NCBI RefSeq assembly: GCF_014467015.1
Contig: NZ_CP058559.1
Location: forward strand, 1,488,001-1,552,000
Reading direction: 5' to 3'
Origin: Alkalicella caledoniensis
GTDB lineage: Bacteria > Bacillota > Proteinivoracia > Proteinivoracales > Proteinivoracaceae
DNA: 64,000 nt
Shown piece by piece: positions 20,480 to 64,000 of the stretch; the stretch's first letter is position 1, and the number at the start of each line of letters is the position of its first letter. Under the pieces are notes generated by a model that worked only from the letters and a program-made list of their open reading frames with translations, was not told where the DNA came from and searched no databases. The position numbers and the translations under genes were made by a program.

Positions 20480-22267
20480 TTATGCTCCTTCGTTAAGGAA
20501 CCTATACTGAGCCATATAAAGCTTATGATACATACCCTTTTTAGCTAGAAGCTGTTGGTGATTTCCAACCTCTTTTATCTCTCCTTCGTCAATTACCATT
20601 ATTCTATCTGCGTTTCTAATTGTTGATAGTCTATGGGCAATAACAAAGGATGTTCTCCCAGCAAAGAGTACATTTAGACCCTCTTGAACTTTCTTTTCTG
20701 TTTGTGTGTCTATACTGGAAGTAGCTTCGTCTAATATTAGTATTCTTGGATCTGCCAGCAGGGCCCTAGCTAACGCAATTAGCTGCCTTTGACCAACAGA
20801 AAGCCTAGAACCACGCTCATTTACGTCAGTGTCATAGCCCTTCTCTAACTTAATTATAAAGTCATGGGCTTTAACAGCTTGAGCTGCTTTCACCACTTCT
20901 TCATCTGTTGCATCTAACTTACCGTAGCGAATATTTTCTTTAATGGTTCCAGAAAACATAAATGTATCTTGGGTCATGATACCCATCTGGCTACGAAGGG
21001 ATTCAACAGAAACATCTTTTAGGTCATACCCATCTATGAGAACTTGACCTCTTGTTGTATCATAAAATCTGCTTATCAGATTTACAATGGTAGTTTTACC
21101 TGCCCCAGTATGACCGACCAGAGCAATAGTCTCACCAGCCTTAATATGAAAGTTAACATTCTTAAGCACCTCTTCCCCATCCTCATAGGCAAAGGTAACA
21201 TGGTTAAACTTCACTTCACCTACTATCTCAGGTAGCTCATCTGCATTTTGAGCATCCACGATATCAGGGGCAATATCCATTATCTCAAAGATTCTTTCCG
21301 CCCCCGAGAGGTTTGTAATTAACAAATTATAAAAATTACTTAGGTTCATTATTGGACGCCAAAACATGGCAATATATCCTGTGAAAGCAACTAGATCTCC
21401 CACTTCTATTTCTCCAGCTGTAAGAAGTCTAGTCCCATACCAAAAAACAATTATTGATCCTATCCCCCATGATAGTTCCACAACTGCCCAGAAAGCATCT
21501 GCCACTTTTACTGCAGAGATAAATGATCCTGTAAGTGTTTTCGATAGGTCAGCAAATGTCCTCTCAGTCTTCTTTTCCCTTGTAAAACTTTGTACCACTC
21601 TGATACCTGAATAATCTTCATGAATATATGCACTCAAGTTTGACCTTTTCTTGCGGTAATCTTGCCATCTTTGCCTACAGGTAATTTGAATTAGAAACAG
21701 TGTTAGCGATAAAAATGGCAGCATAATCAATGCCATTAAAGCCAATTTCCAATTCAAAAAAAGCATAATACCTGCAACTGCTACCAGCGTAATAGCGTCG
21801 GGTATAAGTGTAGTAACACTGTTAGTAAACAGGTCTCCTAGGGAGTTTACATCACCTATAATTCTTGCCAGGATTTTCCCCACAGGCCTTGAATCGAAAA
21901 ATGAAAAGGAAAGTTTTTGAATGTGAATAAAAAGTTCCTGTCTAATTTTCAAAAGGATTTTACTAGAAACCCTAGACATGATAACAATCCGATATCTGGC
22001 ACAGTACATGGCAGCAAAATTTATCACTGCCATGACCACACCTAAAATTGCCAAGCCTTGTAAATCGCCATTTGCGATATATTCATTTATGGCAAGCCTC
22101 ATTAGCAAAGGATTAACTAATGATACAGTGACCACTACAGCCATCAAAAACAAGGTATTAATTACCTCTTTTTTATAAGGTGCAATATATTTCACTAGCC
22201 TTCCAATTATCTTTATATTGACCGTTTCTTTGAGTTTTTCATCTTCCCTAAACGTATTTTTAGCCAT
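20480..22267 (-). CDS. ABC exporter half-transporter, subunit with intact catalytic Glu but variant signature
   Basis: 595 residues: six membrane helices, then a nucleotide-binding domain. Walker A is GHTGAGKTT and Walker B ILILDEATSSID with the catalytic Glu. The ABC signature is RLSVGQRQL, not LSGGQ. Together with its partner at 22269-24002 this matches a heterodimeric exporter with one consensus and one degenerate ATP site, as in BmrCD-like multidrug pumps. The start codon is 1 nt after the partner's stop codon, so the two are co-translated. The substrate is unknown; drug export is likely from the family and from its attenuator. Confidence 0.88.
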   Translation of the reverse strand: MAKNTFREDEKLKETVNIKIIGRLVKYIAPYKKEVINTLFLMAVVVTVSLVNPLLMRLAINEYIANGDLQGLAILGVVMAVINFAAMYCARYRIVIMSRVSSKILLKIRQELFIHIQKLSFSFFDSRPVGKILARIIGDVNSLGDLFTNSVTTLIPDAITLVAVAGIMLFLNWKLALMALIMLPFLSLTLFLIQITCRQRWQDYRKKRSNLSAYIHEDYSGIRVVQSFTREKKTERTFADLSKTLTGSFISAVKVADAFWAVVELSWGIGSIIVFWYGTRLLTAGEIEVGDLVAFTGYIAMFWRPIMNLSNFYNLLITNLSGAERIFEIMDIAPDIVDAQNADELPEIVGEVKFNHVTFAYEDGEEVLKNVNFHIKAGETIALVGHTGAGKTTIVNLISRFYDTTRGQVLIDGYDLKDVSVESLRSQMGIMTQDTFMFSGTIKENIRYGKLDATDEEVVKAAQAVKAHDFIIKLEKGYDTDVNERGSRLSVGQRQLIALARALLADPRILILDEATSSIDTQTEKKVQEGLNVLFAGRTSFVIAHRLSTIRNADRIMVIDEGEIKEVGNHQQLLAKKGMYHKLYMAQYRFLNEGA

Positions 22268-22268
22268 A

Positions 22269-24002
22269 CTATATCACCTCTTCTTGTAGGCTATCTATAT
22301 CCTTAAACTGTTCGCAATAAATATCGTAGTATCTACCCTTTTTCCATATTAGTGATTTATGGTTTCCTCTTTCAACAATTTCACCATTTTCAACTATTAT
22401 GATCTCGTCTGCATTTTTAACAGCAGATATACGATGTGCTATGATAAATTTAGTCATTTCTTTTCTCTTTTCCAGAGCCTTTTGGATGTTATACTCAGTT
22501 TCCATATCAAGGGCCGATGTTGCATCATCAAAGATCAGCACCTTGCTTTTCTTGAGAATTGCACGGGCAATGGAAATCCGTTGTTTTTGTCCTCCGGAAA
22601 GACCCACACCACGTTCTCCGATAATTGTTTGATACCCTTCTTCCATTTCTCCCACAAACTCTTCTACTTGGGCATCCCTAGCTGCATCTTTAAATTCCTC
22701 TGGTGTTACATCATCCACAGAGAAAATTATGTTTTCCTCAATGGTGTCTGAGAACAAGAAGGTATCTTGCATTACCACAGAAATCTCGTCCCTAAGTTCC
22801 TTCAAATCCATTTTTTTAACATCCACACCGTCTACTAAGATGTTACCTTCAGTACAGTCGTAATATCTCCCAATTAAGTTTATAATTGAGCTTTTCCCCG
22901 AACCAGTAGTACCCATAATGGCTACTGTTGAGCCAGGGGCTGCATCTATGTTGATGTTTTTCAGTACATATTCATCCCTATACTTAAATGAAACATTTTC
23001 AAAGACAATATGCCCCTTTAATTCCTTTGGCATTACAGGATTTTCCGGGGAAGTAATAGTTGGCTCAGTATCTATAATGGCAAATATTCTTTTGGCAGAG
23101 GCATTACACCTAGCAATAAGGTTAGTAAGCCACCCCATCAATCTCATGGGCCAGATAAGCATCATTATATACCCATTGAACTTTACTAACTCACCTAAGG
23201 AAATCTGACTACCCACCACAAACATACCACCGATAGAAATAACAACTATTAGCACTAGGTTTGACATAAACTCAATTACCGGGTGGTATTTAGACCATAC
23301 CTTGGCTTGCTGGATATTAAGCCTGTAGTTTTCTTCATTTTGTTTAAAGAATTTTTCCATCTCATGTTTTTCACGGCCAAATGCTTTTACAAGTCTTACA
23401 CCTGAAAGATTCTCTTGGGCAGTGGTATTTAGTACAGCACTTTGGTCACTAAGATTCTCATACGCCTCCCCTATTTTCTTTTCCAGTTTTACAGCTAAAA
23501 GCAGCATAGGTGGCATGGTAAGTAGACATATAATTGCAAGCTTCCAATCAATAGTGAATAACATAGTAGTTGCGATTATTATATAAAGGATTTGCTCTAT
23601 GAAAAACAAGATAGCAAAACCCATGGCGTTCCAGATGTTATTAACATCTTCTGTAGTCCTAGACATAATTTCACCTGTATTTACACCATCAAAATAGTCA
23701 AAGGGTAATTTTTGAATGTGCCCAAACAGATCTTTCCTTATATCTAAAGTAACCTTAGAACCTGCATAGTCAAATAAAAATTCCCTAATGTATCCAAAAA
23801 TAGCTCTACCTATTGTAATACCAAAAAACCCTAGCAATAACGTATTTAAAATTTCATGCCTTCCATCTCGTATCACATCATCTATTATTTTTTGTGTAAC
23901 AATTGGGTTGAACATATCCAATCCTATAGCTATAAACATTGAAACAATTGGTATAATATAAAGTATTTTATATCTCCAAACATATTTAAGTATTCGTTTC
24001 AT
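22269..24002 (-). CDS. ABC exporter half-transporter, subunit with consensus signature but Asp in Walker B
   Basis: 577 residues: membrane domain with about six helices, then a nucleotide-binding domain. Walker A is GTTGSGKSS and the signature VGLSGGQKQR is canonical, but Walker B reads VLIFDDATSALD with Asp in place of the catalytic Glu. The degenerate site would pair this Asp with the variant signature of the partner, and the working site would pair the partner's Glu with this LSGGQ. GGGAGGAGG is its RBS. It is preceded by a leader peptide and two terminator hairpins. Confidence 0.88.
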   Translation of the reverse strand: MKRILKYVWRYKILYIIPIVSMFIAIGLDMFNPIVTQKIIDDVIRDGRHEILNTLLLGFFGITIGRAIFGYIREFLFDYAGSKVTLDIRKDLFGHIQKLPFDYFDGVNTGEIMSRTTEDVNNIWNAMGFAILFFIEQILYIIIATTMLFTIDWKLAIICLLTMPPMLLLAVKLEKKIGEAYENLSDQSAVLNTTAQENLSGVRLVKAFGREKHEMEKFFKQNEENYRLNIQQAKVWSKYHPVIEFMSNLVLIVVISIGGMFVVGSQISLGELVKFNGYIMMLIWPMRLMGWLTNLIARCNASAKRIFAIIDTEPTITSPENPVMPKELKGHIVFENVSFKYRDEYVLKNINIDAAPGSTVAIMGTTGSGKSSIINLIGRYYDCTEGNILVDGVDVKKMDLKELRDEISVVMQDTFLFSDTIEENIIFSVDDVTPEEFKDAARDAQVEEFVGEMEEGYQTIIGERGVGLSGGQKQRISIARAILKKSKVLIFDDATSALDMETEYNIQKALEKRKEMTKFIIAHRISAVKNADEIIIVENGEIVERGNHKSLIWKKGRYYDIYCEQFKDIDSLQEEVI

Positions 24003-24058
24003 TTTCTTTCCTCCTCCCAGTCAAACAAAAGCCTTCTTTGAGATAACTTCAAACAAAC

Positions 24059-24087
24059 AAAAAAGCCATGGGTTTACATCCCATGGC
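24059..24087 (-). terminator. Second attenuator hairpin before the ABC exporter
   Basis: Arms GCCATGGG (24065-24072) and CCCATGGC (24080-24087), followed on the minus strand by six T. Its arms are identical to those of the first hairpin at 24106-24140, so arms could pair across hairpins. Confidence 0.82.
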
Positions 24088-24105
24088 TCACCTTGAAAAG
24101 GGTGC

Positions 24106-24140
24106 AAAAAAGCCATGGGTTATATAGCCCATGGCTTTTT
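24106..24140 (-). terminator. First attenuator hairpin before the ABC exporter
   Basis: Arms AAAAAAGCCATGGG and CCCATGGCTTTTT. On the minus strand it lies 29 nt after the leader peptide stop and ends in a T-run, so it is a typical intrinsic terminator. Confidence 0.85.
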
Positions 24141-24169
24141 GAGTCAAGTTAATTTAACCGTTTTAATGG

Positions 24170-24268
24170 TTAGATTGAAGCTTCCTCAAAAAAGGCAGGG
24201 CTATCCTGTAGTAGTCCAAATATTCCTTGGATTAAGCTGGTTGTTTTTCTTAGTCTAATGTTGATCAT
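24170..24268 (-). CDS. Leader peptide of the ABC exporter operon (32 residues)
   Basis: A short gene with a strong RBS (AAAAGGAGG, 9-nt spacing) and promoter. The peptide starts MINIRLRKTTSLIQGIFGLL and ends QDSPAFFEEASI. Its stop codon is the first base group of a small hairpin (TAACC/GGTTA), followed by two terminators and then the exporter genes. This layout matches ribosome-controlled attenuation as known for bmrB-bmrCD in Bacillus subtilis: a stalled ribosome would change RNA folding and allow read-through. A less likely reading is that the peptide is an export substrate; it lacks Cys and any leader motif for that. Confidence 0.72.
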   Translation of the reverse strand: MINIRLRKTTSLIQGIFGLLQDSPAFFEEASI

Positions 24269-24310
24269 TTTTCCCTACCTCCTTTTCGTAATTTTTTTAC
24301 TTTCCTTATT

Positions 24311-24339
24311 ATTCTAATTCAGATTTGCCCATTAGTCAA
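24311..24339 (-). promoter_or_regulatory. Promoter of the leader peptide/ABC exporter operon
   Basis: On the minus strand TTGACT (24339-24334), a 17-bp spacer and TAGAAT (24316-24311). This is close to the vegetative consensus. Transcription should start near 24304, giving a short leader before the peptide gene. Confidence 0.75.
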
Positions 24340-24341
24340 TA

Positions 24342-24363
24342 ATTATTAACTTTTGTTAATAAT
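24342..24363. promoter_or_regulatory. Perfect dyad next to the -35 box, possible operator
   Basis: ATTATTAAC-TTTT-GTTAATAAT: 9-bp perfect arms, 4-bp centre, ending 2 bp before the -35 box. Such AT-rich dyads are typical of MarR- or PadR-type operators, but no such regulator is encoded nearby. It also lies upstream of the plus-strand gene at 24477. Confidence 0.45.
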
Positions 24364-24476
24364 TTCAAATTAATGCCAGAAGAATTCCTAGGACATACAA
24401 TGGACTTTTTTGTATCACCAATGGTTATACTAGATTTATACTAGATAATACTACACTTAAAACATGGAGGTCCAAA

Positions 24477-24745: not shown

Positions 24746-25204
24746 ATGAAGAACACCAAATTTTTAGTGCAAGGAGCATTAATTGCTGCAGTTTATGTGG
24801 TTATTACTTTGCTTTTCGCGCCCATTAGCTATGGACCTATGCAGGTACGTATTTCCGAAGCTATGACTGTTTTACCTATACTAACACCTGCAGCTATACC
24901 TGGATTGTTTGTAGGTGCCCTAATTGCTAACTTATTCAGTGATGCTGGACTTTTAGATGTAGTATTTGGTAGCTTAGCTTCCTTAATAGCAGCGTATCTC
25001 ACTTACCTGGTGCCTAGGTCAAAACTTTGGCTGGCCCCATTACCCCCAGTTTTAGTAAATGTAATCATAATTCCTATTGTTTTATACTTCGCTTTTGATC
25101 TACCATACTGGTTAATGTTAAGTGGAGTGTTTACAGGACAAATGATTGCTTGCTACGGACTAGGATACCCACTTTTACTAGCTTTAACTAAGCTAAAGAA
25201 GTAG
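24746..25204 (+). CDS. queT: QueT-family queuosine precursor transporter (ECF S component)
   Basis: 152 residues with about five membrane helices. The segments MQVRISEAMTVLPILTPAAI and PGLFVGALIANLF are typical of QueT. It is thought to bind preQ1 or related deazapurines and work with a shared ECF energising module encoded elsewhere. The preQ1 riboswitch directly upstream supports the call strongly. It is followed by a bidirectional terminator. Confidence 0.93.
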   Translation: MKNTKFLVQGALIAAVYVVITLLFAPISYGPMQVRISEAMTVLPILTPAAIPGLFVGALIANLFSDAGLLDVVFGSLASLIAAYLTYLVPRSKLWLAPLPPVLVNVIIIPIVLYFAFDLPYWLMLSGVFTGQMIACYGLGYPLLLALTKLKK

Positions 25205-63723: not shown

Positions 63724-63762
63724 GATACTTACAAAATTGAATATTACCTCACTTCTTAAGAT

Positions 63763-63907
63763 GGTGAGGTAGAGGCGCGGTAATTATTAGTATGTAGTTG
63801 AGCTAGGAGTAGCAAAGATTCTACAGAAAGGATTTACCGCCGAAGTGGTCACATGACTCCCCATGTTTCTGCTGGGTCTACAGTTAAGAGCTGTAGGACT
63901 GTCACAA
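63763..63907 (+). ncRNA. Lysine riboswitch (L box)
   Basis: Core blocks in the right order: GTGAGGTAGAGGCGC, AGTATG, GAAAGGA, ACCGCCGAAG, GCTGGGTCT and GGACTGTCAC. These are the conserved parts of the lysine aptamer. It should control a lysine synthesis or uptake gene (lysC, dapA, lysP or similar), which lies beyond the right edge. A hairpin TACCTCAC/GTGAGGTA (63745-63772) overlaps the 5' side and could compete with the P1 helix. Confidence 0.88.
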
Positions 63908-64000
63908 TAAGCTATCCCAAGTTTGTTGTGTTGCGCTATCTCATGTAAGGGAAAGAAGGGGACTTAGTTATGTAGCAATTTATTGCGACCTGAGTTTCTC
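63908..64000 (+). other. Expression platform of the lysine riboswitch, incomplete
   Basis: 93 bp after the aptamer. No start codon with a convincing reading frame is seen, and no complete terminator hairpin is visible before the window ends. Confidence 0.5.

Follow-up and report, generated by a model that had tools for sequence, protein, structure and literature searches.

On the minus strand of the window (the whole 64,000-nucleotide stretch of Alkalicella caledoniensis DNA analysed here), positions 24364 to 20480 contain, in this order, a dyad, a promoter, a 32-codon leader gene, the terminators T1 and T2 and the genes of two ABC exporter subunits. The promoter, TTGACT-17-TAGAAT (24311..24339), agrees with the consensus at 10 of 12 positions, in line with the near-consensus promoter reported in the initial annotation. 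Taken alone this match is weak, since the region holds 11 promoter-like sites, compared with 7.1 in shuffled sequences. The -10 region and the bases that follow it recur, as judged by eye, in two loci with 71–72% identical pumps (L050 and L051). The -35 box is adjoined by a perfect dyad with a spacer of 4 (24341..24364), a candidate operator. Its position was correctly described before, but its arms are 10 bp long and not 9. When the region was modelled as a first-order Markov sequence, 19 of 5000 samples contained an equally good dyad. Inspected by eye, the relatives mostly lack it, and since a shorter version occurs in a single one (G004), an operator is not established. The gene of a QueT transporter (24746-25204, plus strand) is divergent from the pump operon and has no Rfam match before it.

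The exporter subunits A (577 aa, 22269..24002, minus strand) and B (595 aa, 20480..22267, minus strand) carry the Walker B motifs VLIFDD and ILILDE, respectively. The catalytic Glu is thus present in subunit B and replaced by Asp in subunit A. Such a split between the two subunits is a trait of heterodimeric exporters. TM_0287/0288 and Sav1866 are among the single-subunit bacterial structures closest in sequence. Subunit B matches TM_0288 at 417.2 bits, compared with up to 377.3 bits for YheH/BmrD. The 50 matches listed for subunit A at 1e-100 do not include YheI/BmrC.

The leader gene (24170..24268, minus strand) encodes the peptide MINIRLRKTTSLIQGIFGLLQDSPAFFEEASI, with the motif RLR at R5-R7. 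It is preceded by a strong Shine-Dalgarno (SD) sequence, GGAGGTAGGG, located in segment 1 (AAAAGGAGGTAGGG, 24273..24286), whose SD-core pairs are kept in the relatives. Segment 2 (ATAGCCCTGCCTTTTTTGAG, 24185..24204) lies within the 3' coding part of the leader gene. A 5-bp hairpin (TAACC/GGTTA) is present at the stop codon and is weak. The stem of T1 starts 29 nt past this stop codon, i.e., the terminator lies outside the leader gene. The hairpin and U-run of T1 span 24140-24106, with segment 3 as the 5' arm (24140-24128), segment 4 as the 3' arm (24119-24107) and a U-run extending to 24106. T2 (24059..24089) consists of segment 5 (24089-24080), segment 6 (24072-24063) and a U-run to 24059. 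Both terminators share identical 8-bp arms, GCCATGGG/CCCATGGC, and have folding energies of -20.0 (T1) and -17.1 kcal/mol (T2). A terminator scanner listed T2; T1 was absent from its list. Segment 7 (CTCAAAGAAGGC, 24031..24042), located before the SD of the pump, is complementary to segment 2. The leader region is structured overall (z = -4.5), and none of 100 shuffled sequences was equally stable. The leader gene with its strong ribosome-binding site, the hairpin at its stop codon and the tandem terminators with the same arms ahead of a two-gene exporter had all been pointed out in the initial annotation, and they are all found here.

Two stretches are complementary to segment 2: the SD region of the leader and the 5' half of T1. 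The duplexes 1:2 and 2:3 each have an energy of about -20 kcal/mol, and the 2:3 pairing takes in 24143-24141 and the T1 loop bases 24127-24124 besides the 5' arm (T1 including these bases, 24106..24143). The locus therefore holds the classical set of mutually exclusive pairings: 1:2 as anti-antiterminator, 2:3 as antiterminator and 3:4 as terminator. By computation, part of the terminator is shared by an antiterminator, whose formation is possible only with the ribosome located upstream. The anti-antiterminator overlapping this antiterminator is the 1:2 pairing itself. The same logic is found in trp, bmrBCD and vmlR.

All five analysed genomes of the family to which the window belongs (G000-G004) have a leader ahead of the same pump. 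A search with the leader peptide gave two true relatives, G001 and G002, with homologous leaders in the same place. The peptide matches in G003 and G004 were false, located inside a 668-codon frame, and the pump gene led to the real leaders. In another class, pumps that are 51–55% identical (G292, G393, G403, G404 and G406) are also preceded by leaders, whose N-terminal peptides are unrelated. In G486 (pump 78% identical, family f70) the leader is truncated by the contig start, and segment 2 and both terminators are visible. Promoter and tandem terminators are kept without a leader ORF in G285 (72%) and G105 (71%), at loci L050 and L051, and no leader was seen in G475 and G477 (71%). These four pumps, 71–72% identical and without a recognisable leader, count against the attenuator reading. 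Four genomes of f67 (L053, L054, L056 and L057) have related pumps behind a different and very short leader of about seven codons, MIKGVLK. This leader has its own hairpins, and its codons are complementary to a stretch before the downstream terminator, which by eye makes it a different attenuator. As a DNA pattern, the SD together with segment 2 was found in three of 398 genomes of the phylum, all from the window's family; only the architecture is therefore widespread, the exact sequence being family-specific. A scan of genome contigs with the same pattern yielded eight stretches, all of which were chance matches on inspection.

The pairings were first evaluated in 11 complete leaders. Compared with synonymous recodings of the same peptide, the fraction with an equally good 1:2 pairing was 0.013-0.103 in each of the 11 loci. 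In swaps among loci this pairing was barely locus-specific (901 of 20,000 permutations as good), as expected because segment 1 is the SD. The 2:3 pairing of each leader with its own T1 arm summed to -171.3 kcal/mol, compared with a permuted mean of -121.1 kcal/mol, and 0 of 20,000 permutations were as good. With one locus per clade, the true combination ranked 1 or 2 of 120, or 1 of 24. Locus by locus, 2:3 was better than synonymous recoding at 0.05 in only three of the 11. In the alignment of these leaders (A1), seven pairs of 1:2 and 3:4 had changed on both sides, compared with 3.7 in shuffles (6 of 500), and 83.9% of the cells were paired, compared with 41–59% when slid. Kinship among the sequences weakens the controls in this set.

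The pairings 1:2 and 3:4 were built into a covariance model (R1), with which 398 genomes of the phylum were searched. At E <= 0.01 it matched 45 places in 39 genomes, eight of them training loci. Of the other 37, two were opposite-strand overlaps outside the inspected set; among the remaining 35, an SD with a leader ORF was found in 14 and was lacking in 21, which are bare terminators or places without a leader (L077-L079, L083, L088-L090, L092-L097, L100-L106 and L108). A second model (R2), built from 23 sequences, matched 35 of the 398 genomes and gave four further leaders (L115, L121, L122 and L125). All 22 R2 places with E < 1e-5 have leaders, 20 of them belonging to the training set. The places L119, L120, L123 and L124 were rejected, and L117 and L118 repeat rejected places; low-scoring rows without an assigned locus were inspected in part only. 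Leaders were accepted by eye. L109, doubtful at first, was accepted once rsgA had been found behind it, as it was behind two leaders in related genomes. The total is 29 complete leaders in 11 GTDB families (f1, f7, f21, f23, f58, f87, f98, f101, f102, f135 and f136), to which the truncated leader in f70 is added.

As the 2:3 pairing had been left out of R1, the new members provide an independent test of it. In 13 of them (L109 excluded; T1 arms of L085, L091 and L107 set by hand), the sum for the own arms was -247.2, compared with -191.2, and 0 of 50,000 permutations were as good. With one member per group (nine leaders), the values were -151.5 and -115.9, with 3 of 50,000 permutations as good, or 0 of 50,000 for an alternative choice of members. 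In single loci the own arm ranked 1 to 6 among the nine arms, so the signal lies in the sum over loci. In the model-fitted alignment of 23 sequences, which leans toward structure, 93.6% of the cells were paired and both partners had changed in 10 of 18 pairs (0 of 500 shuffles).

The many low-scoring matches of the models to bare terminators, which made up 21 of the 35 inspected places outside the training set, are what would be expected if the window held ordinary tandem terminators and a small ORF present by chance, without any regulation. Here, the terminators sit between promoter and pump, in the direction of the pump, and the leader, its SD complementarity and the 2:3 pairing are kept across 11 families, which leaves such a coincidence highly improbable. 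Leader regions with terminators are often of the riboswitch, T-box or protein-dependent type, and this prior speaks for a ligand-binding riboswitch, a T-box or an antiterminator that depends on a protein. Against this stand two observations. The leader region has no match in Rfam at the gathering thresholds, sub-threshold matches being to microRNAs and unrelated families, and in alignment A1 conservation is restricted to the SD, segment 2 and the terminator arms, without a conserved unpaired core. We therefore give a factor-binding leader of this kind very little credence. The sole match in the window at an Rfam gathering score is a lysine riboswitch (RF00168, 107.3 bits) at 63762-63946. An attenuator of amino-acid biosynthesis was also rejected, as the leader has none of the amino-acid runs typical of such attenuators and the downstream gene is an exporter. 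Overall, the comparative evidence (29 leaders, covariation of 1:2 and 3:4, specificity of 2:3) supports well the earlier proposal of a bmrCD-like element, and by its sequence the element is probably a ribosome-mediated transcription attenuator that switches the pump genes.

Folding was computed with parts of the leader masked by a ribosome. In 11 of 11 loci, 1:2 was stronger than 2:3 at completion of T1 when the ribosome was either absent or located at the stop codon. With a mask from the SD to about codon 13, representing an early-halted ribosome, 2:3 was the leading pairing in 10 of the 11 loci as the 5' arm of T1 emerged; in the copy ahead of a GNAT-fusion gene it only ties with the pairs of the hairpin (4.2 vs. 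4.4). This mask assumes that the halted ribosome hides the SD, which is a steric inference, since with codon 6 in the P site the distance from the SD is about 20-30 nt. With a narrower mask that leaves the SD free, 2:3 was not formed. Even under the mask of the early-halted ribosome, a completed T1 is preferred at equilibrium in most loci; antitermination by 2:3 must therefore act as a kinetic trap. The equilibrium fold of the whole leader places T1 and T2 in one long hairpin closed by pairing of segments 2 and 7. Such whole-leader folding is a poor guide to folding during transcription. Complementarity of the segment 2/segment 7 type is seen in five of five pump loci of the window's family, with a sequence that changed between loci (composition-shuffle fractions of 0.0, 0.014, 0.072, 0.136 and 0.014).

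The attenuator would operate as follows. RNA polymerase would transcribe the leader gene, and a ribosome would load on its strong SD. A ribosome that reaches the stop codon would cover segment 2, allowing T1 to fold, and transcription would end at T1 or, failing that, at T2. In the absence of leader translation, the SD would be paired with segment 2 (1:2), which again leaves T1 free to fold; this pairing may also limit repeated translation of the leader. A ribosome halted early, for which a macrolide-like drug acting at R5-L6-R7 is the most plausible cause here and any slowing of elongation the more general one, would occupy segment 1 and leave segment 2 free. The 2:3 pairing could then form upon emergence of the 5' arm of T1, and T1 would be lost. 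The 3' arm of T1, now free, could pair with the 5' arm of T2 (4:5), and the polymerase would enter the exporter genes, whose product may export the drug. The earlier proposal that slowed ribosomes switch on the pump keeps its attenuation logic, but the ribosome itself would not block the terminator: by covering the SD, the halted ribosome would free segment 2 and let 2:3 form.

A second terminator-like hairpin is present in all 10 exporter loci of the first set, as well as in L084, L087, L115 and the MFS and MutS2 loci. Three of the four GNAT loci lack it, and it is weak in the fourth; it is absent in three of the five CD3324 loci and doubtful in two, and absent in both RsgA loci tested. The erm(K) leader also has two terminators. 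The 4:5 pairing is possible in all 10 exporter loci (-7.8 to -20.3 kcal/mol). T2 is stronger than 4:5 at equilibrium in most of them, so the domino step is one that we infer. The swappable terminator arms had been taken earlier as an additional control layer; the arms can indeed be exchanged, and the layer is best read as this putative second antitermination step.

The genes behind the 29 leaders encode ABC exporters (12), HTH regulators of the CD3324 family (five), GNAT fusions (four), RsgA (four), MutS2 (one) and an MFS exporter (one), with two unassigned (L076 and L115). The ABC group comprises the ten training loci together with L084 and L087; the pumps of the window and of L084 were scanned, and the rest were assigned by pump similarity or likeness. 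Likewise, L080 was scanned among the CD3324 loci (L075, L085, L091 and L107 by likeness), the window genome's own copy and L081 among the GNAT loci (L098 and L099 by likeness), and L086 and L122 among the RsgA loci (L109 and L125 by likeness). The MutS2 locus (L082) and the MFS locus (L121) were scanned, the latter with weak drug-efflux matches. A further copy of the switch precedes a GNAT-fusion gene in each of G000, G003 and G004, and one ahead of the same kind of gene is found in G342. In the window's own genome, this copy (L020:2170-2320, G000:C1:2248669-2248819) has a single terminator and is flanked by a MutS2-like gene and the GNAT-fusion gene, which has 1023 codons. The switch lies directly before rsgA in three genomes of f21 and one of f87 (L112, L122, L125 and L109), and before mutS2 in one other genome (L113). 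The genes behind the leaders are in keeping with drug export or a response to ribosome stress.

The kinds of downstream genes and an enriched peptide motif suggest that the signal is a drug. Ahead of segment 2, [RK]X[RK] occurs in 14 of the 29 leaders, compared with a mean of 7.8 in residue shuffles (P 0.003), and with one leader per group in 8 of 20 (P 0.034 and 0.023); the count over all leaders is inflated by related ones. A comparison of relatives for conserved stall residues had been proposed earlier; the motif is enriched, but it is not universal: 15 of the 29 leaders lack the motif before segment 2, including G003 and G004, which have the same pump. By downstream class, the motif is found in 6 of 12 ABC, 4 of 5 CD3324, 4 of 4 GNAT, 0 of 4 RsgA and 0 of 4 other leaders, a tally that makes sensing of the macrolide type likely in part of the class but not throughout it. 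In the window's leader, RLR lies well upstream of segment 2. In the own-genome GNAT copy and in G292, the motif is so near segment 2 that a ribosome there would partly cover it.

Two narrower forms of the attenuator can be distinguished. In the first, the leader would be a specific sensor of macrolides and ketolides: the ribosome would be arrested at R5-L6-R7, as on the ErmD, ErmK or MefE leaders, and only such drugs would induce the pump. The position of RLR at codons 5-7, the similar early motifs in G001 (KMR), G002 (KNR) and G404 (KIR), and the enrichment of the motif are in agreement with this, as are the reported arrest at RLR of ErmDL (PMC8298421) and the MRLR stall site of ErmK (PMC4335068). 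The leaders without the motif argue against it, and the ErmDL study also describes erythromycin arrest without a strict need for the motif (PMC8298421). We hold this form tentatively, as somewhat short of an even chance. In the second, any slowing of elongation, including starvation, would free segment 2; there would be no arrest peptide, and the end of the peptide would be set by RNA pairing. From group to group, most of the leader peptides are indeed unrelated and the pairings are retained, and bmrCD is described as induced by lincomycin, erythromycin and chloramphenicol (PMC4191407). The enrichment of [RK]X[RK] above composition is not expected under such general sensing of translation speed, which is possible, at a little less than evens. 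A drug is the leading candidate for the signal, and drug sensing is plausible.

In comparison, the bmrBCD system of Bacillus subtilis also has a leader peptide, followed by two genes for a multidrug ABC exporter (Reilman et al. 2014, PMC4191407), and its induction is reported to need translation of the leader. As described there, the bmrB terminator lies within the leader gene, whereas T1 and T2 are located past the stop codon; here, the anti-antiterminator is formed by the leader's own SD and its 3' coding end. The vmlR leader of B. subtilis likewise has its uORF in an anti-antiterminator hairpin, and a drug-halted ribosome leads to replacement of the terminator by the antiterminator (PMC9226507). 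It differs by the downstream gene, an ABC-F resistance factor, and by an additional hairpin hiding the vmlR SD, and that account describes one terminator. Short leaders with a macrolide arrest site of the [RK]X[RK] type (MRLR) are reported for erm(K), erm(D) and mef(E)/mel, and erm(K) and mef(E) are controlled by transcription attenuation (PMC4335068, PMC8298421). Peptides and downstream genes differ from ours in these systems as described, and in the class found here the motif is not universal. The tlrB (yxjB) leader of B. subtilis shares drug arrest at R/K-X-R/K, terminator control and an SD-sequestering hairpin (PMC6851288). In that system, however, the halted ribosome itself is reported to prevent the terminator, and no antiterminator was identified.

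The attenuator is thus of a known type, and its particular form was not found in Rfam or in the open-licence literature searched. In this literature, outside which most subscription papers fall, no title or abstract start describes such a class. It is about an even chance that these leaders represent an undescribed, phylum-wide class of ribosome-stress attenuators, in which the peptides vary freely and the RNA logic is fixed, with the SD as anti-antiterminator arm and the 3' end of the leader as antiterminator arm. Such a class would drive a shared translation-stress programme of efflux pumps, MutS2, RsgA, GNAT fusions and CD3324 regulators. In the exporter operons, a single refolding would disable both terminators successively (2:3, then 4:5), which would give less leak with inducibility kept. 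For the exporter, the analysis provides a testable three-way RNA switch, and the covariance model detects the same switch where peptide similarity is lacking. MutS2 is reported to split stalled ribosomes in B. subtilis (PMC10897456). If the switch before rsgA and mutS2 is real, some bacteria would induce ribosome maintenance factors by directly sensing halted ribosomes.
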